A stretch of 56,149 nucleotides of DNA from an uncultured Bacteroidales bacterium (lineage in GTDB: Bacteria; Bacteroidota; Bacteroidia; Bacteroidales; Paludibacteraceae): assembly GCA_900317745.1 (NCBI GenBank), contig ONHW01000017.1:1-56149 (forward strand), read 5' to 3'. Positions 6,404-49,809 of this stretch are shown piece after piece. A model generated the notes under the pieces. The model worked only from the letters and a program-made list of their open reading frames with translations. It had not been told where the DNA came from and did no database searches. Position 1 is the first letter of the stretch; each line of letters starts with the position of its first letter. The translations under genes were made by a program, and so were the position numbers.

Positions 6404-6432
6404 GAATTGAAAATTGAAAATTGAAAATTAAG
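6404..6432 (+). repeat. Heptad tandem array upstream of mutA
   Basis: Four 7-base units: AATTGAA three times, then AATTAAG, just after the stop of nuclease gene 3 and 28 bases before the mutA ATG. Confidence 0.8.
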
Positions 6433-12741: not shown

Positions 12742-14829
12742 TCAAACAGGCTTGCGCGACAGACGCACATACAAGCGAAAGAGCATAGGCGGGACAGTGA
12801 CTGCCATCAGCAGAACAACCGACATGCCGATGAGCGTAACTACGCCCAAGGAGTGCATGGCAGGATGAACGGCTAACACCAGTATCCCCACACCAATCAA
12901 CATAATGAGCGCCGACAGCAGGATGGATTGCCGGTACTGAGGTAAGATAGGCTTGCCTGTACGATGCTCGTACAGCAGGCCTTCTACGATAAAGATTGTA
13001 TAGTCGTCACCCTGGCCGAAGATAAACGTGGCAAGAATGATATTCACGATATTAAACTGAATATCGAACAGTTGCATGATTGCCAGGATCCATACCCAAC
13101 TCAATGCCATCGGGACGAACGCAATCAACGCCAGCCAGAAATTGCGGAAACTTAGCCACAGGAATGCAAACACAATCAGTGAGCAGCACACGCCGATATA
13201 ATCGAAATCGTCACTCAACCGTTGCGTGAGTTTGCTCATATCGAATGCTTTGACAGGTTTCCACGAGGTCAGTAGATCATAGAACGGCGCAAAGGCGTCA
13301 GGACGGAAGCCTGTAGCCACCGCCTCTGTGCGTATGGTGCTAACCAGGCTGTCGGCAGAGTGAGTGTTCCAGTACGTCTGCCACTGCTCCGCACGGGTAG
13401 ATTGCGTGCTTGTGGCAGGTGAATCCGAATTGAAGATATTGAAAGCCTGCATATCCGCACGCTGCTCAGGCGACATGTAGTTGATATGATTGAGGTTGGA
13501 ATCAAACCATTTACCATTTGACCATTTACCATTTTCATATTTACCTTCTGTCATTTGCGAGGCGATGAGGTACGTACCCATGGCAATCGTGAGTGCTACC
13601 ACCAGCCATTGACCGGCAGCAATATGTTTGGCGCGAGGTGCAACAGGCAACTTGATCTCTCTGACAGGTGTCGGCTTGGCGGACATCATGTGCGGAAGAA
13701 CGAAGATGCAGAACAAGATTGTACCTACCAGCATTGCCGAGGCAAATATCCCCAGGTGTCTGAGCGCCGTAGCCTGCAAAGGGATAAGTGCCAGGAACGC
13801 ACCTACAGTAGTTATATTTCCCACCACGAGCGGCGAGAGAACTTCCTCCAAGGTCTGCCGCACCGATGAGGTGTAACGCTGATGAACAAGCAGGTGCAGC
13901 GGATAATTGACGGCTATACCGATCAGCACACTGCCTATACCCAACACAACAGCACTAATAGTAGGCGTAACGATTCGCAACACCGCCATACCCATGAGCC
14001 AGCCGAACGAAACAGAAAGGAGAATAAGCCATAGATCTCTGCGACGCGGAAACGAATATGCGAGCAGCAGGATGATCAGCACTAGCGAAAGACTGATGCA
14101 GAGTATCGTATCGAGTTTGATACGCCGGGCATTGCTGACAGATATTACCGGTGCGCCTGTCCAGCGTATATGCAGCGTGGGAAAATGCTGCGCTACCCGA
14201 TCGGTGATTGTTTGTAATGAGTCGATGAGCAAGGCGTTGCGTTGGGTTTCGGTGCTGCCGTACGGCGAGTCGTAGAAGGCAAAGGATCTGTTGAGCGTTG
14301 AGCGTTGAGCATTGAGCGTTGAGAGTTCGATCAGTCCTAAAGGGTCATAAACGATAGCCGTACTTAGGATGCTTGCTCCGGGGATCGCTAATATTGCCTT
14401 GTCGCGCAGCAATGCCGCGTTGACAGCCTGCGGCGTGAAGATTGAATCGAAGCGCGCATACACACTATCGGCAATCCTGTAAGGCATTTGGCTGTACAAA
14501 GCCACCAAACCCTCTGCCGGATCAGGTTCGGCAAGTTGTCCGCCAGCCATACGGCAGTCAATACTATCCGCTAATTGCCAGACAGCCTCTTCGCGCAGGC
14601 TGTCGCCCTCCACCACCAGCACCAGACGAGTGGCAGACTGCTGCGACTGATACTGTGCCAACGCCTCACGATTGTCATCGTCCAGAGGCAGGAAATCCAT
14701 GATATCCTCGCTAAAATGCAAGGACGCAGCCAGAGCGACGAACACCAGCAGCACCAATGCTACCCCGCTCCACAGCCATCGGCGGCGAGTAACGAAAAAA
14801 TCGTATATGCGGAGCAACAGATTCTTCAC
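12742..14829 (-). CDS. MMPL/RND-type lipid exporter of the aryl polyene locus
   Basis: 695 residues, an inner-membrane transporter of the MMPL/RND superfamily (Patched-like), at the downstream end of the APE locus. An N-terminal membrane helix (WLWSGVALVLLVFVALAASL), a periplasmic loop, then membrane bundles at about 235-375 and about 535-690 (two sets of five to six helices). Charged helix residues (GQGDDYTIFIVEGLLYEHRT) fit proton coupling. APE clusters carry such exporters to move the lipid-linked polyene. Two short tandem arrays lie inside the coding sequence: heptads at 14291-14325 (encoding LSTLNAQRSTLN) and AAATGGT units at 13504-13545 (KYENGKWSNGKWFDSN), both in predicted periplasmic loops. 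Confidence 0.85.
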   Translation of the reverse strand: MKNLLLRIYDFFVTRRRWLWSGVALVLLVFVALAASLHFSEDIMDFLPLDDDNREALAQYQSQQSATRLVLVVEGDSLREEAVWQLADSIDCRMAGGQLAEPDPAEGLVALYSQMPYRIADSVYARFDSIFTPQAVNAALLRDKAILAIPGASILSTAIVYDPLGLIELSTLNAQRSTLNRSFAFYDSPYGSTETQRNALLIDSLQTITDRVAQHFPTLHIRWTGAPVISVSNARRIKLDTILCISLSLVLIILLLAYSFPRRRDLWLILLSVSFGWLMGMAVLRIVTPTISAVVLGIGSVLIGIAVNYPLHLLVHQRYTSSVRQTLEEVLSPLVVGNITTVGAFLALIPLQATALRHLGIFASAMLVGTILFCIFVLPHMMSAKPTPVREIKLPVAPRAKHIAAGQWLVVALTIAMGTYLIASQMTEGKYENGKWSNGKWFDSNLNHINYMSPEQRADMQAFNIFNSDSPATSTQSTRAEQWQTYWNTHSADSLVSTIRTEAVATGFRPDAFAPFYDLLTSWKPVKAFDMSKLTQRLSDDFDYIGVCCSLIVFAFLWLSFRNFWLALIAFVPMALSWVWILAIMQLFDIQFNIVNIILATFIFGQGDDYTIFIVEGLLYEHRTGKPILPQYRQSILLSALIMLIGVGILVLAVHPAMHSLGVVTLIGMSVVLLMAVTVPPMLFRLYVRLSRKPV
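13504..13545 (-). repeat. AAATGGT tandem units inside the exporter gene
   Basis: On the coding strand, units close to AAATGGT repeat about five times with small irregularities, encoding Asn-Gly-Lys-Trp. The same AAATGGTAAATGGT pair appears inside an unrelated gene at 55582-55597. Confidence 0.7.
14291..14325 (+). repeat. Five heptads inside the exporter gene
   Basis: TTGAGCG, TTGAGCG, TTGAGCA, TTGAGCG, TTGAGAG in immediate tandem (written on the plus strand). Gain or loss of one 7-base unit would shift the exporter reading frame. Confidence 0.9.
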
Positions 14830-22913: not shown

Positions 22914-23419
22914 ATAAGTTGTAGTTTTGCGTAGAAATTGTCTTTTGTACTGCACTCGCACCAGCCGGCTAATGCCGACTCAAACGGTGTGGATGCTATG
23001 ATTGCGTCCAGCTGTTGCGGCGACTCTAGGATATAGAACGAGGTCTCACCCTGAATATGGTGGCGGATAGCAATCTCGCCGGTTACAATGTTCGGCAGTG
23101 TATATACGAACAATGCCGGGCTCGGATAATAATTCCCTTCTGAGATGGTAGCAAGGTAATCGCGGTCGTTCTTGATACTTGCGCTTCGGTTCGCCAGAAT
23201 GATGGCAGACGGCACATCGTTTGCTGCTTCTATCAGCATCTCTGCCGCAATGAACCCGAGTCGGCTGAGCGTATCCATCTTGAAGAACTTCGGATAGTCC
23301 CCCACATACTTGCGGTACAACTCCACGAGCATCTTTTCGCCCGACTGTTGCACCTGCACAGGCTGACCGTCCAGCAGAACGGAGGTAGCAGTTATCTCTA
23401 TTTCCCTTTCAATTTTCAC
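22901..23419 (-). CDS. Stand-alone ketosynthase-like protein without catalytic cysteine
   Basis: 172 residues, starting at a GTG that lies inside a heptad array. The segment SAIILANRSASIKNDRDYLA and SPALFVYTLPNIVTGEIAIR follow the ketosynthase fold, but the active-site Cys is missing and the rear half of the fold is absent. Small KS-like proteins of this type accompany APE ketosynthases and are thought to be structural or chain-length partners. It sits between the ACP and the KS of 23430-24404, a likely partner. The start is not certain because the upstream sequence is repetitive. Confidence 0.75.
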   Translation of the reverse strand: MKIEREIEITATSVLLDGQPVQVQQSGEKMLVELYRKYVGDYPKFFKMDTLSRLGFIAAEMLIEAANDVPSAIILANRSASIKNDRDYLATISEGNYYPSPALFVYTLPNIVTGEIAIRHHIQGETSFYILESPQQLDAIIASTPFESALAGWCECSTKDNFYAKLQLIWNN

Positions 23420-23442
23420 CTTTCAACTTTCACTTTTCAATT
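23407..23442 (-). repeat. Five heptads spanning the stop of one gene and the start of the next
   Basis: Plus-strand units TTTCAAT, TTTCACC, TTTCAAC, TTTCACT, TTTCAAT in tandem. The TGA stop of the KS (23430-23432) and the GTG start of the KS-like protein (23417-23419) both lie within the array. Confidence 0.9.
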
Positions 23443-25912: not shown

Positions 25913-25955
25913 TTTCAAATTTTCAAATCTTTAAATCTTCAAATCTTCAGTTCTT
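25913..25955 (-). repeat. Octad tandem array between the methyltransferase and ACP genes
   Basis: Plus-strand 8-base units TTTTCAAA, TTTTCAAA, TCTTTAAA, TCTTCAAA, TCTTCAGT, TCTTC. The methyltransferase stop (25947-25949) lies within the array. Confidence 0.85.
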
Positions 25956-27044
25956 CACAACAATGATGGAGTGTCCTCCGTTGCCTATACGGTCGTGAAT
26001 AGTTTCTATCTGCATTCCGGCTTCGTGTATGAGGCGTGTCATATCGTCGGTGTTGTACATCTTGCTGTTGCCGTTGGCGAGAGCGGTGAAGTACAGGCTG
26101 GTCATGGTCAGACTCATGGCTGCAGGCACATAATCCTGCCTGTCCCACAGCGTTTCCATGATAAATATGCGGTTGTCGGCGTCCATGATCCGCGCGGCAC
26201 GACGCAATATAGACACGATCTGCGCCTCGCTGAAGCAGTCCAGGAACTGCGACATCCATATCACATCATATCGTTTGTCGGTCGGGAACGCGTTGCTCTC
26301 ATCCAATATGTTCATCCCTACTCCATGTATGCGCTCGGCACCTTGTTTGCCTGCTGTAGCCTGCTGCATCAGTCCTATCTGTTGCGGCAGGTCGCAGATC
26401 GTAACCTCAATGTTCGGACTATACTGCACGCAACGCATGGCGAACCGTCCGGTGTTGCCGCCTACATCCAGCAGGTGAAGCGGCTGCCGTTCGTCTATCA
26501 GTGCCAACGCCTCGCTGAACGAGTGGTCGGAGTAGTAGTGATCGAACCCGAACCATGATTTCTGTACGTCCTGCGGCAGACTGCTCAGTCCCTCATAGAT
26601 CGTCGGCCAGTCGCCGAAATGTTTCAATCCGGCAGGACGACCTTCCTCCAGTGCTTTGTCCAGCACAAACCAGCCTTCATAATTGACATCGTGGTTGAAG
26701 TCTATATCCGCACGGATCATCTGGTCGCGCAGCAGGAACCAACCTGTCTTGGCAAGCATATATCGGTCTGTATCGGGGTCAATCAGCACGATGTGCAAGG
26801 TCAGCGCGGCCTCCAGCAGACACTTGGCTGCATAATCGCTCAGTCCTGCGGCTTTGGCAATCTCGCCTTGCGTCAGTCCCTCACGATGATCGTTGAGTTG
26901 CTCCAGTATGCCGTACTTGATCATCAAACGGCTTACCTGGAACACTACCGGTCCCCAGGAGTACAGAAGTGCCAACTCCTGTGCCTGACGGGCATTGTAC
27001 TGCTCGCGACTGAATACTTTCTTTATATTGTCAAACAAATGCAT
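25947..27044 (-). CDS. SAM-dependent O-methyltransferase (COMT/hydroxyneurosporene type)
   Basis: 365 residues. The N-terminal about 100 residues form the winged-helix dimerisation domain (GILEQLNDHREGLTQGEIAK). The class I SAM-binding core follows with motif I LLDVGGNTGRFAMRC, then VTICDLPQQIGLM and WMSQFLDCFSEAQI. The closest families are plant caffeate O-methyltransferase-like enzymes acting on aromatic hydroxyls. In this locus it probably methylates the aryl head group, as known for some APEs. The gene is bounded by an octad array at its 3' end and a palindrome cassette at its 5' end. Confidence 0.87.
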   Translation of the reverse strand: MHLFDNIKKVFSREQYNARQAQELALLYSWGPVVFQVSRLMIKYGILEQLNDHREGLTQGEIAKAAGLSDYAAKCLLEAALTLHIVLIDPDTDRYMLAKTGWFLLRDQMIRADIDFNHDVNYEGWFVLDKALEEGRPAGLKHFGDWPTIYEGLSSLPQDVQKSWFGFDHYYSDHSFSEALALIDERQPLHLLDVGGNTGRFAMRCVQYSPNIEVTICDLPQQIGLMQQATAGKQGAERIHGVGMNILDESNAFPTDKRYDVIWMSQFLDCFSEAQIVSILRRAARIMDADNRIFIMETLWDRQDYVPAAMSLTMTSLYFTALANGNSKMYNTDDMTRLIHEAGMQIETIHDRIGNGGHSIIVVKN

Positions 27045-27047
27045 CTT

Positions 27048-27109
27048 AACTTTTTAACGTCGCGGCTGCGACCATTTTAACTCTTTAACGTTTTGCAATA
27101 GCAAAACCC
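27048..27109 (-). repeat. Palindrome cassette A (two different palindromes in a TTTAAC framework)
   Basis: Read on the plus strand: TTTTTAAC, palindrome GTCGCGGCTGCGAC (27059-27072), CATTTTAACTCTTTAAC (27073-27089), palindrome GTTTTGCAATAGCAAAAC (27090-27107), CCTTAT. It fills the whole gap between the KS and methyltransferase genes. Cassette B at 33680-33752 has the same framework with other palindromes. Confidence 0.8.
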
Positions 27110-28327
27110 TTATAACGTCCTTAAGACAATCGCGCTATTTGTTCCGCCGAAGCCGAAACTGTTACTCAGCACGGTGTTAACAGGCGTCTCAACGGTTGTA
27201 GTGGCTATACGCAGTGTCTCGGCGGCAGGATCAACGTGCTCCAGATTGATGTTCGGCGCAACGAATCCTTCCTGCATCATCAGTACGGAGTACACCGCCT
27301 CGCTGGCTCCCGCCATCCAGCACTCATGACCGGTCATTGACTTTGTGCTGCTTACCCAGGCACGCTTGCCGCCGAACAGCCGGGTCAGCGCAACAGCTTC
27401 CTCCTCATCTCCCTGTTTGGTTGAGGTGGCGTGGGCGTTGACATAATCGATATCATCTGCAGTCACACCGGCGTCCTGCAAAGCGCGCTGCATGGCTATC
27501 AGCGAACCTTCACTGCTCGGCTGGGATATACCTCCGCCGTTGCTGGAGAATCCGTAACCGCATACCTCGGCAAGTATCGTTGCTCCGCGTGCTACGGCGT
27601 GCTCATAATCCTCCAGAACCAACGCTGCCGCACCGCCGCTGGGCACGAGTCCGTCACGATCGGTGTCGAACGGACGGCTGGCTTTCTGCGGCTCGGCTGT
27701 GCGTGCGGAGAACGTGCCTAATGCATCAAACGCCGCCATGGCGTACGGGTTAACCTCCTGCGCACCGCCCACCAGCACCATCTGCTGCAGACCCTGGCGG
27801 ATGAACATTGCACCCAGACCTATCGAATGACTGCCACTGGCGCAAGCCGCGCTCACCGAGAAGTTTATTCCGCGCAGGTGGAAGATAGTGGACAGGTTCA
27901 TATTCACCGTTGAGTTCATCGACTGAAATATCAGTCCGCTGCCGAGCAACGCCGTGTCATGCTTCGCCAACATCTGCTCGTGCATCTCCACGGTCGGCAG
28001 TGCCGTGCTGTCGTTGCCGAAAAGCACACCTACCTCATTATCCAGCAGATATTGTTCATCCACACCTGCCTGCTCAAACGCCTCGCGTGCCGCCATATAG
28101 GCATACTGCGCCTCTTGCGACATCCCTGTACGCAACCGCCGGTGCAGCAGCGCTTTCAGGTCAGGGGTATCCACTATGCCTGTCAGCGGACTGCGAAATC
28201 CGTACTCACTGCGTGCTGCATCAATACCTATACCGCTACGTCCGGCACGCAGAGAGGCACTCACCTCCTGCTTGTTATGCCCGATGCACGACCATATTCC
28301 TATTCCGGTTATTACTACTCTTTTCAC
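27110..28327 (-). CDS. Beta-ketoacyl-ACP synthase (FabF/FabB-like)
   Basis: About 405 residues, full-length KS. Catalytic Cys is in SAACASGSHS (about residue 162), with His in NAHATSTKQGDEEE and MTGHECWMAGAS. It has the FGFGGTNSA ending. A GTG at 28327 gives the usual N-terminus MKRVVITGIG; a TTG two codons upstream is the only other choice and no ATG is present. The start lies right next to a 12-unit heptad array, so the usual ribosome-binding region is made of repeat. This is the likely main elongating KS of the APE pathway. Confidence 0.9.
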   Translation of the reverse strand: MKRVVITGIGIWSCIGHNKQEVSASLRAGRSGIGIDAARSEYGFRSPLTGIVDTPDLKALLHRRLRTGMSQEAQYAYMAAREAFEQAGVDEQYLLDNEVGVLFGNDSTALPTVEMHEQMLAKHDTALLGSGLIFQSMNSTVNMNLSTIFHLRGINFSVSAACASGSHSIGLGAMFIRQGLQQMVLVGGAQEVNPYAMAAFDALGTFSARTAEPQKASRPFDTDRDGLVPSGGAAALVLEDYEHAVARGATILAEVCGYGFSSNGGGISQPSSEGSLIAMQRALQDAGVTADDIDYVNAHATSTKQGDEEEAVALTRLFGGKRAWVSSTKSMTGHECWMAGASEAVYSVLMMQEGFVAPNINLEHVDPAAETLRIATTTVETPVNTVLSNSFGFGGTNSAIVLRTL

Positions 28328-28338
28328 TTTCAAATTCT

Positions 28339-28422
28339 CTAAACACTAAACTCTCAACCCTAAACACTCAACCCTAAACACTCAACTCTAAACTCTAAAC
28401 ACTCAACTCTAAGCCCTCAACT
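28339..28422 (-). repeat. Twelve-unit heptad array between the ketoreductase and KS genes
   Basis: Plus-strand units CTAAACA, CTAAACT, CTCAACC, CTAAACA, CTCAACC, CTAAACA, CTCAACT, CTAAACT, CTAAACA, CTCAACT, CTAAGCC, CTCAACT in strict 7-base register (84 bases). It makes up almost all of the gap. Confidence 0.97.
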
Positions 28423-28426
28423 TCTC

Positions 28427-29152
28427 TCACCCCATTCCTCCTGCTATGCTTATCACTTGCCCGGTGATGTACGCCGCCTCCTCGGAGCACAGAAAACTTA
28501 CCAGCGCCGCCACTTCTTCGGGTTTGCCGAAGCGTCCGGCGGGGATAGTCTTTTTCAGTTCCTGCTCATCCAGGTCAGCCGTCATATCCGTGCAGATGAA
28601 TCCCGGTGCTACGGCATTCACGGTCACTTTCCTTGCCGCCACCTCTTTGCTCAACGCCTTTGTCGCACCAATCAGCGCGGCTTTGGCGGCGGAGTAATTC
28701 ACCTGTCCCGGCAGTCCGCTCACGCCTGACACCGAGGTGATGTTCACGATACGGCCCAGACGTGCCCGCAGCATGCCTGTCAGCACATGATGAGTGGTAT
28801 AGTAGAACCCGTTGGTGGTCGTATTGATTACATCGTGCCACTCCTGTTCACCCGTGAACACCAACAGTCCGTCGCGACGTATGCCGGCGTTGTTCACCAG
28901 CACACGGATATGCTCTCCCGGATGGGCGTTGTCCCATGCGGTAAGTGCTGTCTCGATAGCCGTTCCGTCGGTTACATCGAACTGCAACAACTCTGCTTTG
29001 CCGCCGGCTGACTCTATCGCCTCGCGGGTCTGCTCGGCAGCCAAGGTGTTGCTATGATAATTGATGACCACCGTGTACCCGTCGCGTGCCAGACGTTCGG
29101 CTATAGCACGACCAATTCCGCGGCTGCCACCGGTTATAAGTGCATAATTCAT
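28427..29152 (-). CDS. 3-ketoacyl-ACP reductase (FabG-like, ApeQ type)
   Basis: 241 residues, a short-chain dehydrogenase. NADP-binding TGGSRGIGRAIAERL at the N-terminus, NNAG in the middle, catalytic Ser and Tyr-x3-Lys in NYSAAKAALIG. The end AAYITGQVISIAGGMG is typical of FabG. It reduces the 3-ketoacyl-ACP made by the ketosynthases. The start overlaps the stop of the ammonia lyase gene by 4 bases (ATGA). Confidence 0.93.
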   Translation of the reverse strand: MNYALITGGSRGIGRAIAERLARDGYTVVINYHSNTLAAEQTREAIESAGGKAELLQFDVTDGTAIETALTAWDNAHPGEHIRVLVNNAGIRRDGLLVFTGEQEWHDVINTTTNGFYYTTHHVLTGMLRARLGRIVNITSVSGVSGLPGQVNYSAAKAALIGATKALSKEVAARKVTVNAVAPGFICTDMTADLDEQELKKTIPAGRFGKPEEVAALVSFLCSEEAAYITGQVISIAGGMG

Positions 29153-30681
29153 AATTGTCTCAGATATTTCTCAATGTTTGCCAAATCCTCGTAGAACGGC
29201 GTATCGTTAATCACTGTCGGCGTGATAGCCCGTATGGCGTCGTAGCAGGCTTTCGTCGCCGGCGCCAGTTCGTCTTGTATGCCCAGACAATCCACTGCCT
29301 GCGCCATTGCTAAATACAGAACCGACAGCACCTGATAGCAGTTGTCTATCACCTGTGCGCATAACTCCGCACTGTTCGTGCCCATCGACACGATATCCTG
29401 ATTGTCGTTGTTGTTCGGAATGGAGTGCACATAGTTCGGCATTGCCAGTGTCTGACACTCTGCCGTCGTACTGGTAGCGGTGAACTGACATGCCTGAATG
29501 CCGTAATTGAGTCCCAGCGTGCCTATGTTCAGGAACGGCGGCAGGATTCCGTTTATACGGTCGTGACACAGGTAGTTCAGTTGCCGCTCGCTAACCATCG
29601 CCAATCGAACCATCGCAATCTTCATCTTGTCGGCTTCCAGGGATATATAGTCGCCGTGGAAGTTTCCGCCGTGATACACGTTCTGCGTCACGGGATCGAC
29701 TATCGGATTGTCGCTCGCGGCGTTCAGCTCTTCCTCTATCACCTGACGGCTGTACGCGAGTGTGTCAAAGATCGGACCAAGTATCTGCGGAGCACAGCGC
29801 AGCGAGTAGTACGCCTGCACTTTGTCCTTGAATACGCCGTTCTCCTCTATGCTTTCGACTTTCGACTTTCGACTTTCGACTTGATACAGCACGTTCTCAC
29901 GTTTCTGCAAGCGCTTGCTGCCTGCGCTCAGTCGGCGCATCTCCTCGGCTATGCGTATCTGACCGTTGTGACGCCTATATTCGTTCAGCGGCGCAGCCAT
30001 CAGGTCGTCATAACTGCCGGCAATCTCGTTCATCCACACCGCGGCAAGCGTCGCATGGCGCAGCAGATTCTCGGCATGCAACTGATTGACACTGCTTATG
30101 CCGGTCATTACACTCGTGCCGTTCGTGCAGCTCAGACCTTCGCGTATATGGATGCTGATCGGCTTCAGCCCGCACTCTGCCAGCACTTCGGCTGTCGGAC
30201 GCCACTCGCCCTTGTAATGCACCTTTCCCTCGCCTATCAGACACAACGCTATATGCGCCAACTGCACCAGATCGCCGCTCGCACCTACGCTGCCGTGCTT
30301 TGGAATGTACGGATAGATCCCGCGGTTGATAAACTCGGTCAGCAACGCCACCAACTCCGGATGCACACCGCTCTTGCATTGTGCAAACGAACCGACTCGT
30401 GCGAGCATGCTCGCGCGTACAAAAAAGTCCCCGAGCGGTTCACCCATACCTGTGGCATGCGAGCGTATGATATTATACTGCAAGTCGCGCAAGTGATCGT
30501 CACTCACGCGCCATTGTGCCATCGGACCGAAACCCGTATTGATTCCGTAAATCACCTTGTCATGGGCAAACTGTTGCAGAAATTTGTAACAGTCCGCTAT
30601 GCCGTCAAGAGTGGCTTTGTCCCACTCCAAACGGCCGTCTCTGTACAAGAGGTCGTGTACTATTGATAAATCTAATTTCAT
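29149..30681 (-). CDS. Aromatic amino acid ammonia lyase (HAL/TAL family), starter-unit enzyme
   Basis: About 510 residues from the ATG at 30681. The Ala-Ser-Gly triad that forms the MIO cofactor is at 134-136 (GSVGASGDLVQ), and the family Tyr lies in YGINTGFG (45-52). Further on: NQDIVSMGTNSAELCAQVID. It removes ammonia from an aromatic amino acid to give an aryl acrylate (for tyrosine, 4-coumarate), the expected APE starter; whether tyrosine or histidine is used cannot be decided by eye. A heptad array (29852-29879) lies inside the gene and encodes QVESRKSKVES in a surface-type loop. An upstream in-frame start at 30723 lies next to the promoter, so 30681 was chosen. First gene of the minus-strand operon. 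Confidence 0.9.
   Translation of the reverse strand: MKLDLSIVHDLLYRDGRLEWDKATLDGIADCYKFLQQFAHDKVIYGINTGFGPMAQWRVSDDHLRDLQYNIIRSHATGMGEPLGDFFVRASMLARVGSFAQCKSGVHPELVALLTEFINRGIYPYIPKHGSVGASGDLVQLAHIALCLIGEGKVHYKGEWRPTAEVLAECGLKPISIHIREGLSCTNGTSVMTGISSVNQLHAENLLRHATLAAVWMNEIAGSYDDLMAAPLNEYRRHNGQIRIAEEMRRLSAGSKRLQKRENVLYQVESRKSKVESIEENGVFKDKVQAYYSLRCAPQILGPIFDTLAYSRQVIEEELNAASDNPIVDPVTQNVYHGGNFHGDYISLEADKMKIAMVRLAMVSERQLNYLCHDRINGILPPFLNIGTLGLNYGIQACQFTATSTTAECQTLAMPNYVHSIPNNNDNQDIVSMGTNSAELCAQVIDNCYQVLSVLYLAMAQAVDCLGIQDELAPATKACYDAIRAITPTVINDTPFYEDLANIEKYLRQL
29852..29879 (+). repeat. Four perfect heptads inside the ammonia lyase gene
   Basis: CTTTCGA four times without a mismatch (plus-strand writing), continuing into CTTGATA. 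One unit more or less would shift the frame of the ammonia lyase. Confidence 0.93.
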
Positions 30682-30700
30682 CTTTTCACAAAAAAACGTG

Positions 30701-30732
30701 CAAATATACAATATTTTTTTCAATTATGCAAA
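30701..30732 (-). promoter_or_regulatory. Promoter of the aryl polyene operon
   Basis: On the minus strand TTTG (30729-30732), 20 bases, TATATTTG (30701-30708), about 20 bases before the ATG at 30681. It is probably the main start for the about 18-kb operon; no other promoter of this quality was seen between the genes down to 12742. Confidence 0.75.
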
Positions 30733-30778
30733 TTATTCGCAAAATAATTTTCCTATTTGTTAAATTTTGCGTCTTATA

Positions 30779-30810
30779 TTTGCAAATGTCAGATTTTTTT
30801 AGTAACTTTG
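30779..30810 (+). promoter_or_regulatory. Promoter of the acyl-ACP thioesterase gene
   Basis: TTTG (30779-30782), 20 bases, TAACTTTG (30803-30810). The -33 element sits in ATTTGCAAAT. It is divergent from the operon promoter, 46 bases away, so both could share a regulator. Confidence 0.82.
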
Positions 30811-30843
30811 CATGTCAAAACACTTAAAGGCACTCTTTATAGC

Positions 30844-31707
30844 ATGATTACACACAATCAATACACACACCGTTATTCGCTCACCGCAGCGGATATGGAT
30901 ACGCGCTACCGCATGGCGCCAAATGCCGTCTTGCTCTATTACCAGGACTGTTGGGCGAGGTTTATGTCCTGCCTGCATCTCGCAGCGTTCGATATTGTCA
31001 AGATGCAACGCCTCTGGGTTATCACCGAGTTCAACGCCTGCTTTGAGCAGCAGACCGCACTCTGGTCCGACGATATCGATGTTACCGTCTGGAATAGCGA
31101 GATCAGCACGCTCCGACTGTATGCCGAGTTCCGTGTACGCCGAACCGATGGGATTGAAATTGCACATGGCTACGGTTGCTGGACACTTCTCGACACCGAA
31201 TCGCACCGACTCGCACCGCTCACGCCTATCCAGCAACTCATCCCTATTCTGCCGGAAGTAACGTCCGACAACCACCGCAAACGCCGTTTCCCGACCGATG
31301 GCACCACGCTACAGCAACTCGAGCACCGCGTCAACCCGATCAATCTTGACTTCAACGGACATGTCAACAACCGCACGTACCTGAGTATAGCCATGCAGTC
31401 GGCTGATGAACCGTTCATGGACGCTTATGCGATCCGTTGCCTCACTATCCATTGGCTCAAGGAGACGTTCCTCGGCGACACTCTTCTCTGCCGTCTGACC
31501 TTGCTTCCCAACAACGATTCACCCGATTCGGTCTATCATTACCTGCACACCATCACCCGCCACACCGCCGCACCATCCACCGAATCAACCACCGTCCCCG
31601 CCGCTGAAGCGACCGCACCCGCTACCGAAATAGCCGCCCAAGTTTATTCCGAGTGGGTTCCGCGCAAGCAGAACATTGATGCGTCACTTCACGTCAAGCG
31701 CGAATAA
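30844..31707 (+). CDS. Acyl-ACP thioesterase (FatA/FatB-like double hotdog)
   Basis: About 287 residues from the ATG at 30844; earlier in-frame starts would lie before or inside the promoter. The N-terminal hotdog (about 1-125) contains MAPNAVLLYYQDCWARFM; the second has NPINLDFNGHVNNRTYLS with the DxNxHVNN active-site motif. A low-complexity Ala/Thr/Pro linker lies near the C-terminus (TVPAAEATAPATEIAAQV). It hydrolyses acyl-ACP to free acid. Since it is divergent from the APE operon it may act in general fatty acid release or in polyene editing. Confidence 0.85.
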   Translation: MITHNQYTHRYSLTAADMDTRYRMAPNAVLLYYQDCWARFMSCLHLAAFDIVKMQRLWVITEFNACFEQQTALWSDDIDVTVWNSEISTLRLYAEFRVRRTDGIEIAHGYGCWTLLDTESHRLAPLTPIQQLIPILPEVTSDNHRKRRFPTDGTTLQQLEHRVNPINLDFNGHVNNRTYLSIAMQSADEPFMDAYAIRCLTIHWLKETFLGDTLLCRLTLLPNNDSPDSVYHYLHTITRHTAAPSTESTTVPAAEATAPATEIAAQVYSEWVPRKQNIDASLHVKRE

Positions 31708-31787
31708 TCCGCCACATCCTGCCGCTACACACATAGCAGAAACGCAACTGGAGTTTGCAAAACTTCACATTTTTGCATTTTTCTGAC

Positions 31788-31812
31788 AGGACTGACTTCT
31801 GGTGTCAGTCCT
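31788..31812 (+). promoter_or_regulatory. Perfect inverted repeat overlapping the promoter of the HIRAN gene
   Basis: AGGACTGAC (31788-31796) and GTCAGTCCT (31804-31812) with a 7-base loop. It is followed by a -7 element TATCTTTG at 31819-31826; the -33 position falls within the repeat. It could terminate the thioesterase transcript, or be an operator. Confidence 0.55.
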
Positions 31813-31872
31813 TTGTCGTATCTTTGCATCGAAAATTAATTTTCTTTTAAACAAAACTAAAATCATCTCACT

Positions 31873-32208
31873 ATGAAGATCAAACACGACAAGGAACATT
31901 TCCTTAGCTGCAAAGTAGCAGCGTTTACGTACTGCGATGGCGTTGAGGTGTTCAGCCAACTCAAGGTCGGCAAGAAAGTTCGCCTGGTGCGTGAGGACGA
32001 GAACCCGCACGACCACAATGCAGTCGCTGTCTTCTTTGGCGACACGCATATCGGTTACATCCCTCGCCAGCAGAACGAGACCATCTCCAAACTGCTCGAT
32101 CTCGGCTATGCCGACATCTTCGAGGCGCGCATTCAGGCAGTTGATCCCACCGCACATCCCGAGCAGCAGGTGGATATAGTTATTTACATTAAACGAAAGG
32201 AGAAATAA
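31873..32208 (+). CDS. HIRAN-domain protein
   Basis: 111 residues, almost wholly a HIRAN domain (VAAFTYCDGVEVFSQLKVGK, REDENPHDHNAVAVFFGDTH, IGYIPRQQNETISKLLDLG). HIRAN domains bind single-stranded 3' DNA ends in fork-remodelling helicases such as HLTF, and occur as stand-alone small proteins in bacteria. Here it stands alone, so its partner is unknown. The start ATG follows the promoter element by about 46 bases. A truncated SIMPL gene begins two bases after the stop. Confidence 0.85.
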   Translation: MKIKHDKEHFLSCKVAAFTYCDGVEVFSQLKVGKKVRLVREDENPHDHNAVAVFFGDTHIGYIPRQQNETISKLLDLGYADIFEARIQAVDPTAHPEQQVDIVIYIKRKEK

Positions 32209-32210
32209 TC

Positions 32211-32345
32211 ATGGAAACCGAGAAAATCATTGCCGTCACCGGACGGGGAAACATACACGTTGTGCCTGACGTCACACGCGTGGAGGTCAAGATTAACAGC
32301 ATTTTGCGCTCGTATAAAAGACTAACTAACCGCAAAAAATACTGA
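32211..32345 (+). pseudogene. 5' remnant of a SIMPL-domain (DUF541) gene
   Basis: 44 codons beginning METEKIIAVTGRGNIHVVPD, the usual N-terminus of cytoplasmic SIMPL proteins (normally over 200 residues). The match ends after VEVKINSI; the frame then runs through unrelated LRSYKRLTNRKKY to a stop. The promoter of the transposase-like gene starts 25 bases later, so the rest was probably lost on insertion or deletion linked to that element. No 3' part was found downstream. Confidence 0.7.
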
Positions 32346-32369
32346 TTTTCACATTTTCCTCATGGAAAA

Positions 32370-32401
32370 TTTGGATTATTCAGTATTTTTTTGTATCTTT
32401 G
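32370..32401 (+). promoter_or_regulatory. Promoter of the transposase-like gene
   Basis: TTTG (32370-32373), 20 bases, TATCTTTG (32394-32401). Between it and the ATG at 32486 lies an imperfect hairpin with TTGGGT / ACCCAA arms (about 32438-32460). Confidence 0.72.
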
Positions 32402-32485
32402 TACGATTTTTCGCATACCACGCACACCAAAGATAAATTGGGTAGCCATCGGTGACCCAAACAACGAGAGAAAAAGAAATTTATA

Positions 32486-33523
32486 ATGCCCTCTAATCAC
32501 GACACATGGCATTGGCAAGAACCGGGAACTGCATGGAAAGGCATCGGCATTTACCATGTCACGCTGACGATACCGTCGCGTGAGCCGTTGTTGGGTGAGC
32601 TTTGCATTCCTAATAATGATCCCAAGATAGCATATATCCAACGGACGGAATTAGGGGAAAAACTGGTCAATGAAATTTATGCGATCGGAGCTATTCATAA
32701 ACCGGTACGTATTCTTCAATTTTGTTTGATGCCTGATCATTTGCATCTTATTCTTCATCTCCGTCAAGACTCCGGAGTTAGTATCAGAGCTATCATACGC
32801 GGATTTTGGCAAGGTGCCAAGCGTTTAGGACGAGAGTACACTTTGTCAATTGATCCCGAATTTAATTCGGGGACAACCAACAAAGTCGATATACACAGCG
32901 CATTTCCAATTTTCACCGAGCAGCCCTTCATTCGCCCGCTTTCTCACCGAGGTCAACTATCCTCCATGTACCGCTACGTCCAGATGAACCCTCAGCGGCT
33001 GGCTACCAAGAAACTCATGCCGAGGTTCTTCCGCGTGCAAGAGGACATTGAGATAGCCGGACGGAAGTACCGCGGCATCGGCAATGCCAAACTGCTACAA
33101 GCCGAGCGACTTACGCCCGTTCATGTCCGCCGGACGATGATAGACGAGGCTATGCAAGGCAATAACAAACGGCTACGCGATTACATGAACGGCTGTGTGC
33201 TGGCTGCCCGTCAGGGAGCCGTGATGGTATCGCCGTTCATCTCCGACAAGGAGAAAGAGGTGATGATCGTTCTCCTCTTAGAGGAGCATCCCATCATCTA
33301 TATCGCGGATAAAGGTTTTAGCGATTATTACAAGCCCTCCGACGGTCTCTTTGATGCCGTCGCCGCAGGTCGCGTGCTGATACTCAGCCCGTGGGAATAC
33401 GATCCCTCCAAACGTCATGTCACCCGCCCAGAATGCGTCGAGATGAATAAAATGGCGGAAGAGATATGCACTTTGTCCATTGTTCCCGAATTTGATTCGG
33501 GGCAAAACAAAACTAATGAATAA
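32486..33523 (+). CDS. Y1/REP-associated-type transposase fused to a DprA/LOG-like domain
   Basis: 345 residues. Residues about 25-180 form a Y1 transposase domain of the IS200/RAYT type: GIYHVTLTIP, HUH motif in MPDHLHLIL (H85, H87), candidate catalytic tyrosines in MYRYVQMNP (Y162, Y164). From about 185 the C-terminal part (ARQGAVMVSPFISDKEKEVM, IYIADKGFSDYYKPSDGLFD, SPWEYD) resembles a Rossmann-type DprA/LOG domain, so the protein is longer than usual RAYTs (about 150-250). Two hairpins with CCCGAAT / ATTCGGG arms lie inside the coding sequence (32855-32872 and 33485-33502), both read as PEF-N/D-SG. There is no flanking target duplication I can identify. It may be domesticated. Confidence 0.78.
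   Translation: MPSNHDTWHWQEPGTAWKGIGIYHVTLTIPSREPLLGELCIPNNDPKIAYIQRTELGEKLVNEIYAIGAIHKPVRILQFCLMPDHLHLILHLRQDSGVSIRAIIRGFWQGAKRLGREYTLSIDPEFNSGTTNKVDIHSAFPIFTEQPFIRPLSHRGQLSSMYRYVQMNPQRLATKKLMPRFFRVQEDIEIAGRKYRGIGNAKLLQAERLTPVHVRRTMIDEAMQGNNKRLRDYMNGCVLAARQGAVMVSPFISDKEKEVMIVLLLEEHPIIYIADKGFSDYYKPSDGLFDAVAAGRVLILSPWEYDPSKRHVTRPECVEMNKMAEEICTLSIVPEFDSGQNKTNE
32841..32876 (+). repeat. Internal REP-like hairpin, copy 1
   Basis: CTTTGTC, then CCCGAATTTAATTCGGGG (7-bp arms, 3-base loop). About 90 % identical to copy 2 at 33471-33506; the two are 630 bases apart and in the same reading frame. Confidence 0.85.
33471..33506 (+). repeat. Internal REP-like hairpin, copy 2
   Basis: CTTTGTC, then CCCGAATTTGATTCGGGG at the 3' end of the transposase-like gene. 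Same framework as copy 1 with the loop TTG instead of TTA. Confidence 0.85.
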
Positions 33524-33528
33524 TCCCC

Positions 33529-33672
33529 ATGCCCTGTCCACATAATCACATAGATTGCCCATGTCCTAAAGACTGTCCTCGTCACGGACATTGTTGCGCC
33601 TGTGTCGCCCACCACAAAGCCGCAGGAACCAAACTTCCCGCCTGCTTGCGTGGAATAGATTGGCAGAAGTGA
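33529..33672 (+). CDS. Small cysteine-rich protein (DUF6485-like)
   Basis: 47 residues beginning MPCPHNHIDCPCPKDCPRHG, with eight cysteines and histidines arranged as possible metal ligands, ending LPACLRGIDWQK. It resembles small cysteine-rich cytosolic proteins annotated as DUF6485. It starts five bases after the transposase-like gene stop, but may be unrelated to it. The motif spacing makes it likely to be a real gene despite its length. Confidence 0.7.
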   Translation: MPCPHNHIDCPCPKDCPRHGHCCACVAHHKAAGTKLPACLRGIDWQK

Positions 33673-33679
33673 TTCTTGA

Positions 33680-33752
33680 CTAACCATTTAACGTTTCCAA
33701 AGGAAACCATTTTAACTATTTAACCCTTTAACGTCACATCGTGACCTAATCT
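33680..33752 (+). repeat. Palindrome cassette B (same framework as cassette A)
   Basis: CATTTAAC, palindrome GTTTCCAAAGGAAAC (33693-33707), CATTTTAACTATTTAAC plus CCTTTAAC (33708-33732), palindrome GTCACATCGTGAC (33733-33745), CTAATCT. It lies directly before the WYL gene ATG at 33753, so it makes up the leader region. Confidence 0.8.
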
Positions 33753-34670
33753 ATGGCAGCACAGAATAAATTGTTTCAACGGTTGATTTGGCTGGTGGAT
33801 ACGATCTACAGCGCAGGGCATATATCGCGTGAAGAGATTGACCGCCGGTGGGCGACTGCACGCTACAATGATATGCACGAGACCACGTACGGCGAGCGAA
33901 ATTTCCACCGCCATCGCGAGACTGTTCAGGAGATCTTCGGTATCGACATCGTGTGCAATCACACCACCAAAGAATATTCCATCCAAGGTCTCGACAAAGC
34001 CAATGGAGCCGGTATGCGTTCGTGGCTGATGAACACCTTTGCCTTCAACAACCTAATTAACCTCGGCAGCAGGCTGCAAGCCCGCATCATCTTTGAGGAA
34101 ATACCCGAAGGCACACGTTTCTTATCCACGATTGTCAATGCGATGAAAGACAGCCGGCAACTATACGCCGTTTATCAGGGTTATAAACGCGCCGAGCCGC
34201 ATACGTTCCTGCTTTCACCGTACTGCCTGAAGGTTTTCAAGCAGCGGTGGTATCTCGTTGGCAAACCCGATGATCACCCCGAGGAGGCAGAGCCGCGCGT
34301 GTATGCACTCGACCGCATGGTTGATCTGACATCCACCGACAAGCCGTTTAGGCTGCCTAAGGATTTCAAGCCGTCGTTGTTCTTCAAAGGTCAGTACGGC
34401 GTGGATCGTTCGATACGTGAGGAGCAGAAGATCGTAGTGAAAGTCGAGTCGTACGATGCCAACTTCTTGCGCTCGCTGCCACTGCATGCCAGTCAGATTG
34501 AGATGAAGCAGGACGACCGATATACATATTTCGGGTTCTACGTTGCGCCGACATACGACTTTATCCAGGAGTTGCGTAAGTTCGGACCATCACTCGAAGT
34601 CCTCGAACCTGCCCCACTCCGCGATGCGTTCAAAAAAGACAGCGAGAAACTAAGGAATTTATATGCATAG
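33753..34670 (+). CDS. WYL-domain transcriptional regulator
   Basis: 305 residues. N-terminal helix-turn-helix-like part (about 1-80: FQRLIWLVDTIYSAGHISRE, RNFHRHRETVQEIFGIDIVC). WYL domain at about 125-225 (YAVYQGYKRAEPHTFLLSPY, CLKVFKQRWYLVGKP, RVYALDRMVDL), followed by a WCX-like C-terminal region. WYL proteins bind ligands, often nucleotides or nucleic acids, and many regulate DNA-damage or phage-defence genes. It is followed 10 bases later by the ADP-ribosylglycohydrolase fusion, a likely co-transcribed partner. The leader carries palindrome cassette B. A second paralogue lies at 45000. Confidence 0.9.
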   Translation: MAAQNKLFQRLIWLVDTIYSAGHISREEIDRRWATARYNDMHETTYGERNFHRHRETVQEIFGIDIVCNHTTKEYSIQGLDKANGAGMRSWLMNTFAFNNLINLGSRLQARIIFEEIPEGTRFLSTIVNAMKDSRQLYAVYQGYKRAEPHTFLLSPYCLKVFKQRWYLVGKPDDHPEEAEPRVYALDRMVDLTSTDKPFRLPKDFKPSLFFKGQYGVDRSIREEQKIVVKVESYDANFLRSLPLHASQIEMKQDDRYTYFGFYVAPTYDFIQELRKFGPSLEVLEPAPLRDAFKKDSEKLRNLYA

Positions 34671-38122: not shown

Positions 38123-38941
38123 ATGATTCTTTATTTTTCAGCAACAGGCAACAGCCTCGCTATTGCACGGCAATTGGCAGAACGGCTCAACGAACGACTT
38201 ATGCTGCTGACTGAAGCGGTTAAGCAGGACTTGACAGGCGAAAAACGTATCGGGTTGGTCTTTCCTACATACGATTTCAATCTGCCACCCGCTATGCCCG
38301 AGATGGTAGCGCGACTGAAGATCAGTCCGCAATCGTACGTCTTTACGGTCATCACGTGCGGCAGTATGGCGGGTAACTGCGTATGGGTGTTGCGGCGCTT
38401 ACTGCGCAAGAAAGGTATCGAACTGGCATACAGCCACAAGGTGAGTATGCCCGACAACAGTGCACTTGCGTTCGGGCGTAATCCTAACAAGCAGTTGGGT
38501 AAGTACGAACGAGTGCCGGCTCGTATGGAGCAGATCATCCGCGAACTGCAGAACGAAAGCCACACGCTGCATTACAGTTGGTTCGGTTTGCTGTCATGGC
38601 TACTCGGTCGCCCGGCTATGGAGAGAGGGATGATTCATTACCTGGGTCCGAAGGTGAATGCCGACAAGTGTACAGGTTGTGGAACTTGCGTGCGTGTCTG
38701 TCTAATGAACAATATAATTCTCCAACCGCGAAGCGTTCAAACAGAGCAAAGTTCAAACAACGCAAGCGCTCAAACAGGCGAAGCCGTTCAGGTCGCTGTC
38801 ACCGGAGACCGTTGTACCGTATGCCTGGCTTGTGTTCATGCTTGTGCACAGCAGGCAATCAGTACGAATGGTAAAGTTACTCTGAAAGAACGCCAGTACC
38901 GCCATCAGCAGATCAAACTGAAAGACCTGCTGCTGAGATAG
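38123..38941 (+). CDS. EFR1-type flavodoxin-ferredoxin fusion protein
   Basis: 272 residues. The N-terminal flavodoxin part (MILYFSATGNSLAIARQLAE) is followed by two 4Fe-4S ferredoxin motifs, CTGCGTCVRVC and CTVCLACVHACAQQAI. Proteins of this type act as low-potential electron carriers. The linker between the two clusters holds an imperfect repeat (38731-38792) encoding RSVQTEQSSNNASAQTGEAV, an insertion not needed for the fold. About 150 bases upstream contain only a weak 34-codon frame. Confidence 0.88.
   Translation: MILYFSATGNSLAIARQLAERLNERLMLLTEAVKQDLTGEKRIGLVFPTYDFNLPPAMPEMVARLKISPQSYVFTVITCGSMAGNCVWVLRRLLRKKGIELAYSHKVSMPDNSALAFGRNPNKQLGKYERVPARMEQIIRELQNESHTLHYSWFGLLSWLLGRPAMERGMIHYLGPKVNADKCTGCGTCVRVCLMNNIILQPRSVQTEQSSNNASAQTGEAVQVAVTGDRCTVCLACVHACAQQAISTNGKVTLKERQYRHQQIKLKDLLLR
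38731..38792 (+). repeat. Imperfect tandem repeat in the EFR1 linker
   Basis: Units of about 15-17 bases around GTTCAAACA / GCTCAAACA / GTTCAGG, each preceded by AAG or AAGC. It lies in frame between two ferredoxin motifs. Confidence 0.6.
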
Positions 38942-49697: not shown

Positions 49698-49709
49698 GAG
49701 ATTTGAGCG

Positions 49710-49809
49710 ATATCAAACAATATCAAACGATTTCAAACATTATCAAACGATTTCAAACATTATCAAACCATTTCAAACCATTTCAAACCATTTCAAACGA
49801 TTTCAAATA
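49710..49809 (+). repeat. Ten-unit decamer array directly before the pectate-lyase-like gene
   Basis: Ten consecutive 10-base units: ATATCAAACA, ATATCAAACG, ATTTCAAACA, TTATCAAACG, ATTTCAAACA, TTATCAAACC, ATTTCAAACC, ATTTCAAACC, ATTTCAAACG, ATTTCAAATA. The array ends one base before the ATG at 49811. Confidence 0.95.

Follow-up and report, generated by a model that had tools for sequence, protein, structure and literature searches.

Sequence is the usual basis on which repeat families are defined and found, as it is for the cyanobacterial short dispersed repeats (SDR) of Elhai et al. in 2008, which are reportedly very small, lack a transposase of their own and form sequence-defined families rather than fixed linkers with free stems. 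REP, BIME and REPIN elements are short intergenic hairpins with a conserved foot motif, arranged in tandem or inverted groups and restricted to a species or genus, and the accessible parts of the sources (PMC3733652, PMC6006769, PMC3116915) also report compensatory changes for REPINs. Intergenic heptamer repeats of the TAACTGA type, some of them from Bacteroidetes, are direct repeats of 7-8 nt that occupy small gaps near start codons and are absent from the same gap in relatives; the available portion of their description (PMC4679880) mentions no alternating hairpins. At the level of DNA structure, mini-hairpins that combine a GNA or GNNA loop with two or more G-C pairs are extraordinarily stable and resist heat and nucleases, GCGAAGC melting at 78 degrees (PMC4686876, accessible text), while the promoter hairpins of phage N4 extrude under natural supercoiling and need the G and A of the loop and the closing pair, the identity of non-conserved stem bases being extraneous if the hairpin is kept (PMC4496689, available sections). 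Here we describe two cassettes, A and B, in contig ONHW01000017.1 (56,149 nt, analysed at full length and called the window; the genome carrying it is called the own genome). They are examples of arrays built by alternating a fixed short linker, the frame, with short self-complementary slots. This class, found in gut bacteria, is real, abundant and confined to one genus in the genomes sampled, and it follows a shape rule. We give about even odds (roughly 0.5) to the reading that these are arrays of DNA mini-hairpins addressed by shape, which are inserted and exchanged mostly between genes. As far as checked, the combination of linkers, hairpin motif and stem exchange is new, linkers and mini-hairpin motif each being known; a literature search, with most subscription papers beyond its reach, returned no description of fixed-linker arrays with exchangeable GNA hairpins.

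Architecture of the two cassettes

Both cassettes follow one plan, in which TTTAAC is followed by a perfect GT...AC palindrome, CATTTTAAC, one or two octamers NNTTTAAC and a final palindrome (Table 1). The frame is an array of octamers NNTTTAAC, cassette B holding one octamer more than cassette A. Two loci with a common TTTAAC framework and four palindromes that begin with GT, end with AC, pair perfectly and otherwise differ were what the original prediction had described, and both statements hold in the window for all four slots. The C-T-rich end that it also ascribed to the cassettes is not common to them, the array simply ending there. The element as such, which the prediction had assigned to no described class, stands. 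Beyond its view were the constraint on the loop (GNA/GNNA, on one strand), the membership of the outer GT and AC in the frame, the octamer make-up of the frame and the sister families that have other frames.

Cassette A takes up the whole gap separating two minus-strand genes, one with an O-methyltransferase domain and the other a ketoacyl-synthase gene, and cassette B lies between a 47-codon open reading frame (ORF), 3' of a RAYT-like gene, and a WYL-domain gene, whose start codon (33753) directly follows the cassette. Because of the strands of these flanking genes, cassette A is antisense and cassette B sense to its neighbours. The linkers resemble the TAACTGA-type repeats in lying as direct repeats in gaps close to start codons; the hairpins do not share this likeness.

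Integron attC sites consist of inverted core sites around a variable hairpin. Here the frame repeats directly and not inverted, and attC was set aside on the direct repeats alone, integrase genes not having been searched for. CRISPR was likewise set aside since the slots are self-complementary; cas genes were not searched for.

Distribution of the TTAAC family

The frame was sought as family 1 with the pattern TTAAC-[GT..AC]-CATYTTAAC, its reversed form serving as control. Of the 178 genomes in the genus of the window, 78 carry family 1, with up to 44 copies, against a single match of the reversed pattern in all 178, so that the search for further copies in the genome and its relatives, proposed with the original prediction, succeeded. 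Across an order-wide sample of 393 evenly drawn genomes it is present only in the own genome (1/393), the reversed control giving about 15 matches. Seven copies of TTAACGT..ACCATTTTAAC are present in the own genome, and one array before a gene accounts for four of these (reversed pattern, 0); when pairing is not required, there are nine ACCATTTTAAC sites against two in the reversed control, and a hairpin, read by eye, directly precedes eight of the nine. A contig scan gave at least 118 stretches with the pattern; of the 118 listed, 115 come from Bacteroidota, a single Flavobacterium not counted. Among the matches listed, nearly all titles are Paludibacteraceae or Bacteroidales, often with ruminant-related names; three matches in unrelated taxa (Clostridia, Proteobacteria, Flavobacterium) are all unpaired, and 144 of the other 160 are perfect. 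Between called ORFs lie 111 of the 122 placed copies.

A chance origin is rejected: the reversed controls gave 0, 0, 1, 3 and 0 matches across the pattern scans, the order samples gave about 15 and 1 reversed matches where the own genome by itself has 7 and 77 real copies, and off-clade matches are unpaired. A phage origin is rejected as well, the 3 and 5 matches in viral contigs being unpaired in all eight cases.

Pairing, variety and exchange of stems

A slot was called perfect when it pairs from its ends to a loop of at most 5, and for shuffling the 3' parts were redealt within each length class; since the outer GT and AC are already set by the pattern, only the inner part of the slot is tested. 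Perfect pairing is seen in 198 of 223 machine-read slots, where 1000 shuffles average 67 and reach 88 at most, and in 115 of the 140 distinct slots among these copies (shuffled mean 33, maximum 48), with 44 different arms among the slots of family 1. The predicted fixed frame with a variable, paired hairpin of many sequences is supported by these counts; pairing is general, and only the claim that the arms are always paired was too strong.

Exchange of stems is observed at orthologous positions. From 97 candidate orthologous pairs between different genomes, 19 did not align and 78 were used, these pairs not being independent (loci recur in several) and decayed copies escaping the pattern. The slots are identical in 22 pairs, differ in the loop only in 15, carry different stems that are both paired in 33, and include an imperfect slot in 8; the expected co-variation of the arms takes the form of exchanged stems with pairing retained (33/78). 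The change is often wholesale, as in GTCGC-GTA-GCGAC against GTTTTTAT-GCA-ATAAAAAC. Frame identity in these pairs was left unused as evidence, being circular since the pattern fixes the frame. Certain stems are shared by unrelated loci and by many genomes (GTCGC in 34, GTTTTGAT in 24 and GTTTGC in 18 of 192 perfect slots), and neighbouring slots of one array nearly always differ, only 2 of 68 pairs being identical. This pattern, in which pairing is mostly held and stems are free, suggests that these sites preserve the shape of the DNA and not its sequence.

A loop rule on the frame strand

Read on the frame strand, the perfect triloops of family 1 are GNA in 112 of 143 cases and TNC, which is the same loop on the other strand, in none; for tetraloops the counts are 24 GNNA and 1 TNNC among 49. 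The sister families 2 and 3 described below show GNA in 30 of 38 and 9 of 15 triloops, TNC in none, and GNNA in 9 of 11 and 1 of 5 tetraloops. General intergenic hairpins with arms of at least 5 have GNA in 27 of 358 strand-counted triloops. Most slots, though not all, carry the loop type of d(GCGAAGC) and its relatives, and family 2 slots are such sequences (GCGAAGC, GCGCAGC, GCGCCAGC); the arms of 49 perfect family 2 slots are GC in 24 and GT in 9, and many family 1 stems are A-T rich. The mini-hairpins treated in the accessible text of PMC4686876 differ in being synthetic oligonucleotides rather than a genomic repeat class; the many A-T-rich stems of family 1 are a second difference. A second likeness is to the N4 early promoters, which also combine a small DNA hairpin, a loop with 5' G and 3' A, a required closing pair, strand asymmetry and free but paired stem bases. 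These differ in being, in the available sections of PMC4496689, three phage promoters read by a virion RNA polymerase and not arrays.

The slots might instead act as RNA hairpins between co-transcribed genes, as terminators, processing elements or translation-coupling elements, which we regard as very unlikely. Their position would suit such a role: of 111 placed copies, 94 have co-directional genes on either side, a layout shared by 143 of 198 gaps in unselected stretches of the own genome (p 0.017), the median gap is 80 nt, and copies are often a few bases from a start or stop codon. Moreover, stems are shorter where GC content is higher (rho -0.65, 44 arms), a simple terminator scan accepts the first slot of each cassette, and predicted stability varies less than at random, in RNA (sd 1.84 against 3.22) more clearly than in DNA (1.41 against 1.88), although this evenness may stem from T-run length alone and is not main evidence. 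The copies occur in both orientations, however, 35 being sense and 59 antisense, and a G..A loop of three or four is carried by 24 of the 35 sense and 42 of the 59 antisense copies between co-directional genes (counted in 80 of at least 118 named loci, the window and two own-genome loci). Selected RNA hairpins would be expected to show the complementary loop on the frame strand in antisense copies; it is mainly because the loop rule follows the frame strand whichever the direction of transcription that the structure is placed at the DNA level. A terminator scan of 26900-33900 gave no excess (5 found, 6.5 expected), the CTGTCA linker of family 2 has no T tract, and the G-C-rich stem with a T tract in the sense direction that marks an intrinsic terminator does not describe these arrays, 59 of 94 copies being antisense and the scan showing no excess. 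An Rfam search of 26900-33900 gave no match. Folding energy by strand was discarded as uninformative.

Sister families and an array within a gene

Other frames with the same plan were seen in unselected stretches of the own genome and of the family-1-free genomes G010, G013 and G016. The own genome carries the frames TTTAAC, CTGTCA and TTCAAACA, and TCCTATA is found in relatives. Family 2, CTGTCA[..]GGTCTGTC (pattern CTGTCAG..CGGTCTGTC), is carried by 78 of the 178 genus genomes (reversed control, 3 in all), with 77 copies in the own one. Its matches in an order sample of 305 genomes fall in five other genomes, one in each (reversed control, 1); four of these were checked and are unpaired, and the fifth appears unpaired as listed. 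The slots of family 2 are tiny, such as GCGAAGC or GCGCCAGC; the inner pair is complementary in 22 of 23 seven-mers, with a GNA loop in 20 of 23, and in 11 of 12 eight-mers, with GNNA in 10 of 12. Family 3, TCCTATA[..]GTCCTATA (pattern TCCTATAG..CGTCCTATAG), occurs in 16 of 178 genus genomes, the own genome not being among them, with no match of the reversed control. Families 1 and 2 co-occur, 55 genomes having both, 23 and 23 one only, and 77 neither, with kinship uncontrolled. A fourth frame, AATCATTC, was noticed by eye, and a pattern built for it found nothing. A further hairpin family of the own genome, ATCAGCCAA..TTGGCTGAT, with small variations, lies in gene gaps (L229 18245-18274, L232 13593-13655, L237 16936-17003).

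A GNA-hairpin array with the TTCAAACA-type linker, ordered CGCGAAGCG-TTCAAACA..CGCAAGCG-CTCAAACA-GGCGAAGCC, lies in frame within an EFR1-family ferredoxin gene (38123-38941), in the part that separates the two 4Fe-4S motifs. A tandem-repeat finder gives it a span of 63 bases, and the sole relative in the fetched loci (L058, 48.5% identity) has 21 residues (63 bases) fewer in this stretch; one of the four slots, GAGCAAAGTTC, is unpaired. Length and place fit an insertion, which is probably what occurred, one relative being thin evidence, and the array suggests that such arrays may alter proteins too.

Turnover at orthologous junctions

The cassette B junction was found in 7 of 30 fetched loci, own included. 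Four of them (L293-L296; L213 and L187 duplicate L293 and L294) keep the array with GTTTTGAT..ATCAAAAC in slot 1 instead of GTTTCC..GGAAAC, the copy at L298 is decayed, and L306 is without the array. At the cassette A junction, resolved in 22 cases (own included), the own locus, L263 and L264 carry TTTAAC with hairpins that are partly different, L269 has bare octamers, L280 has another frame with hairpins, and the remaining junctions hold other short repeats or spacers. The linker of L280, of the same kind as that of the window's CATTTCAAAC-type array, carries a hairpin. In a further comparison, L135 against L123, the flanks are 99% identical and the spacers in the gap before ATGGCAAGATATATTGG entirely different, TTTAAC hairpins in one and GCTAACA-type repeats in the other; the genes flanking this gap are presumably ribosomal protein genes. 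From these junction comparisons it follows that the arrays are gained, swapped and lost fast.

The main rival, and a serious one, explains the arrays by mutation without function or recognition: intergenic microsatellites expand by slippage, and a fold-back or template switch writes one arm as an inverted copy of the other, stable GNA turns favouring the fold-back and giving both paired stems and loop type. We judge it rather unlikely. According to a proposal in PMC8794818 (accessible part), a single template switch can produce a perfect stem, and such switching also helps stems to stay perfect. The linkers resemble slippage products, bare arrays exist (L269 and the CATTTCAAAC-type array of the window), some hairpins at array edges run into the end of a coding sequence as though it had been their template (L107, L207), and decay is observed at L298. 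Local fold-back does not, however, predict the same stems at unrelated loci in many genomes, and array neighbours are nearly always unlike. In addition, the loop inversion expected from strand switching is absent, no TNC triloop occurring in families 1-3, and wholesale swaps of stems leave the linkers intact.

Relation to RAYT genes

A RAYT-like gene lies 160 bases from cassette B, and homologues are present in 131 of the 178 genus genomes. The arrays could accordingly be a REP-like family spread by genus-common Y1 (RAYT) transposases, with the linker as guide sequence at the hairpin foot, which we consider improbable. Y1 enzymes bind hairpins, guided by a tetranucleotide at the hairpin foot (PMC6006769, as far as available), inverted pairs of elements occur (genome G001, contigs 3, 86 and 112), and both the TTAAC family (odds ratio 4.0) and the CTGTCA family (3.4) tend to occur in genomes that have RAYT, kinship uncontrolled. 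Elements are nevertheless carried by 10 of 47 and 11 of 47 RAYT-negative genomes, of which G112 has ten copies (some genomes are incomplete), and Y1_Tnp itself matches in 68 of 178. The 30 fetched RAYT loci hold one TTAAC element, which is cassette B, and no CTGTCA element, and a different hairpin family lies within or close to the RAYT genes inspected, with the GACAATAGACAAAG frame and loops that are not GNA. Compared with REP and REPIN elements as given in the accessible parts of PMC3733652, PMC6006769 and PMC3116915, the arrays have TTAAC, CTGTCA or TCCTATA in place of the foot GTAG or CGTC, lack a stem shared within a genome (identical in 7 of 451 same-genome pairs, 140 distinct slots in 223), do not sit beside a cognate RAYT, and add fixed linkers on both sides and the GNA loop rule. 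As the cognate enzyme RAYT was set aside, the window gene included, the association being moderate and linkage absent.

Just before a RAYT gene, L066 and L067 carry the tandem hairpins CCGGAATATGATTCCGG and CGGCATACGATGCCG, with a GACAATAGACAAAG-type frame and non-GNA loops. The window's RAYT-like gene contains a 23-nt imperfect inverted repeat around CCCGAATTTAATTCGGG (32840-32886) and CCCGAAT..ATTCGGG near its end (33485-33501). For genes of the subclass 2.4 defined in PMC6006769, internal insertions of REP elements are reported there.

A model of shape-addressed hairpins

In the preferred reading, the slots would be DNA mini-hairpins on the linker strand, mostly capped by GNA or GNNA, and the linker would set polarity. 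The hairpin would appear, and its shape be read, when the duplex is open, single-stranded or negatively supercoiled; if it is recognised by shape, almost any stem would suffice provided that pairing holds. The hairpin-binding Y1 transposases set a precedent for enzymes that read shape (PMC6006769). Units would be inserted and exchanged between linkers by a process that handles single-stranded DNA and reads shape, and whole arrays would be gained, replaced by other repeat families and lost, mostly in intergenic gaps and probably once in frame in a gene. Formation of the hairpins in vivo, their copying or exchange by such a process and recognition of their shape are what we infer from the linkers, stems, loops and junctions. 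The stronger form, in which an active structure-reading process adds or exchanges GNA-capped single-stranded hairpins at linker-marked sites, one genome carrying several independent families that share the loop rule only, is put forward tentatively and below even odds.

Several observations weigh against the preferred reading. Imperfect slots make up 25 of 223, decayed or deleted copies occur (L298 and also L303), and only 24 of 49 family 1 tetraloops are GNNA. Many family 1 stems are A-T rich with a T-A closing pair, and a DNA folding model, which has no GNA bonus, gives GCGAAGC +1.2 kcal/mol (RNA, +2.0), so that slots of two base pairs find no support from folding models in either form. Family 3 pairs only modestly above shuffles (20 of 28; mean 12.7, maximum 18). 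Orientation and gap type are only weakly biased (p 0.017 each), and of 24 family 2 copies in unselected stretches of the own genome 10 overlap a called ORF, which may be real or spurious, so that 'intergenic' is less sure for this family. Slot likeness within a genome is barely above that between genomes (identical in 7 of 451 dispersed pairs against 269 of 24234), and therefore no recent within-genome copying is visible; recent amplification within genomes was dropped as a candidate, slot identity giving no signal. Nor is there a signal of genome-specific loops, as a trans factor choosing the loop would leave, in all genomes (36 of 261 against 798 of 6715, permutation 62/300) or in a genome subset (8 of 65 against 182 of 1985, permutation 70/300).

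These arrays keep sequence in the linkers and shape in the slots, and since sequence is kept only in the linkers, sequence-based repeat finders are likely to split or miss them. With orthologous sites they provide many natural replicates for asking whether perfect stems are kept by selection, recognition or template switching. Should the hairpins form when the DNA is supercoiled or single-stranded, the arrays would be a genome-wide natural use of the GNA mini-hairpin, a motif known from oligonucleotides (PMC4686876) and phage N4 promoters (PMC4496689) in the accessible parts of these sources.

Features of the window

Table 1. Coordinates of the cassettes, their slots and other features of the window
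Feature	Position	Strand	Composition or remark
Cassette A	27048..27109	+	TTTTTAAC, slot 27059-27072, CATTTTAAC 27073-27081, TCTTTAAC 27082-27089, slot 27090-27107
Cassette A slot 1	27059-27072		GTCGC-GGCT-GCGAC, arms perfect
Cassette A slot 2	27090-27107		GTTTTGC-AATA-GCAAAAC, arms perfect
Cassette B	33680..33752	+	TTTAAC 33687-33692, slot 33693-33707, CATTTTAAC 33708-33716, TATTTAAC + CCTTTAAC 33717-33732, slot 33733-33745
Cassette B slot 1	33693-33707		GTTTCC-AAA-GGAAAC, arms perfect
Cassette B slot 2	33733-33745		GTCAC-ATC-GTGAC, arms perfect
TTTAAC	27053, 27084, 33687, 33719, 33727		
CATTTTAAC	27073, 33708		
Related array	38727..38789	+	TTCAAACA-type linker; slots CGCGAAGCG 38727-38735, CGCAAGCG 38761-38768, GGCGAAGCC 38777-38785
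Bare tandem array	49708..49807	+	CATTTCAAAC type, without hairpins, upstream of a gene
RAYT-like (Y1 HUH transposase-like) gene	32486..33523	+	Y1_Tnp E 0.0048 (below Pfam cut-off); REP_Tyr_transpos E 3.8e-06 (below NCBIfam cut-off)

The 47-codon ORF upstream of cassette B (33529-33672) is cysteine-rich and gave no match in Pfam and NCBIfam searches; its stretch matches many genus genomes, sometimes several times each. Cassette B copies follow the same small ORF at L305, L299 and L303, with another gene downstream than in the window, and the pair of small ORF and cassette B looks as if it were portable.

Short tandem arrays of units of about 7-8 nt, differing in sequence, occur at 6405-6429, 13506-13545, 14290-14327, 23401-23442, 25914-25957 and 28337-28422, mostly at gene boundaries, and the orthologous gaps of relatives hold other units. 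The region 25947-30723 is a cluster with O-methyltransferase, ketoacyl-synthase, short-chain dehydrogenase and aromatic amino acid lyase domains, which we take to recall aryl-polyene or flexirubin pigment clusters.

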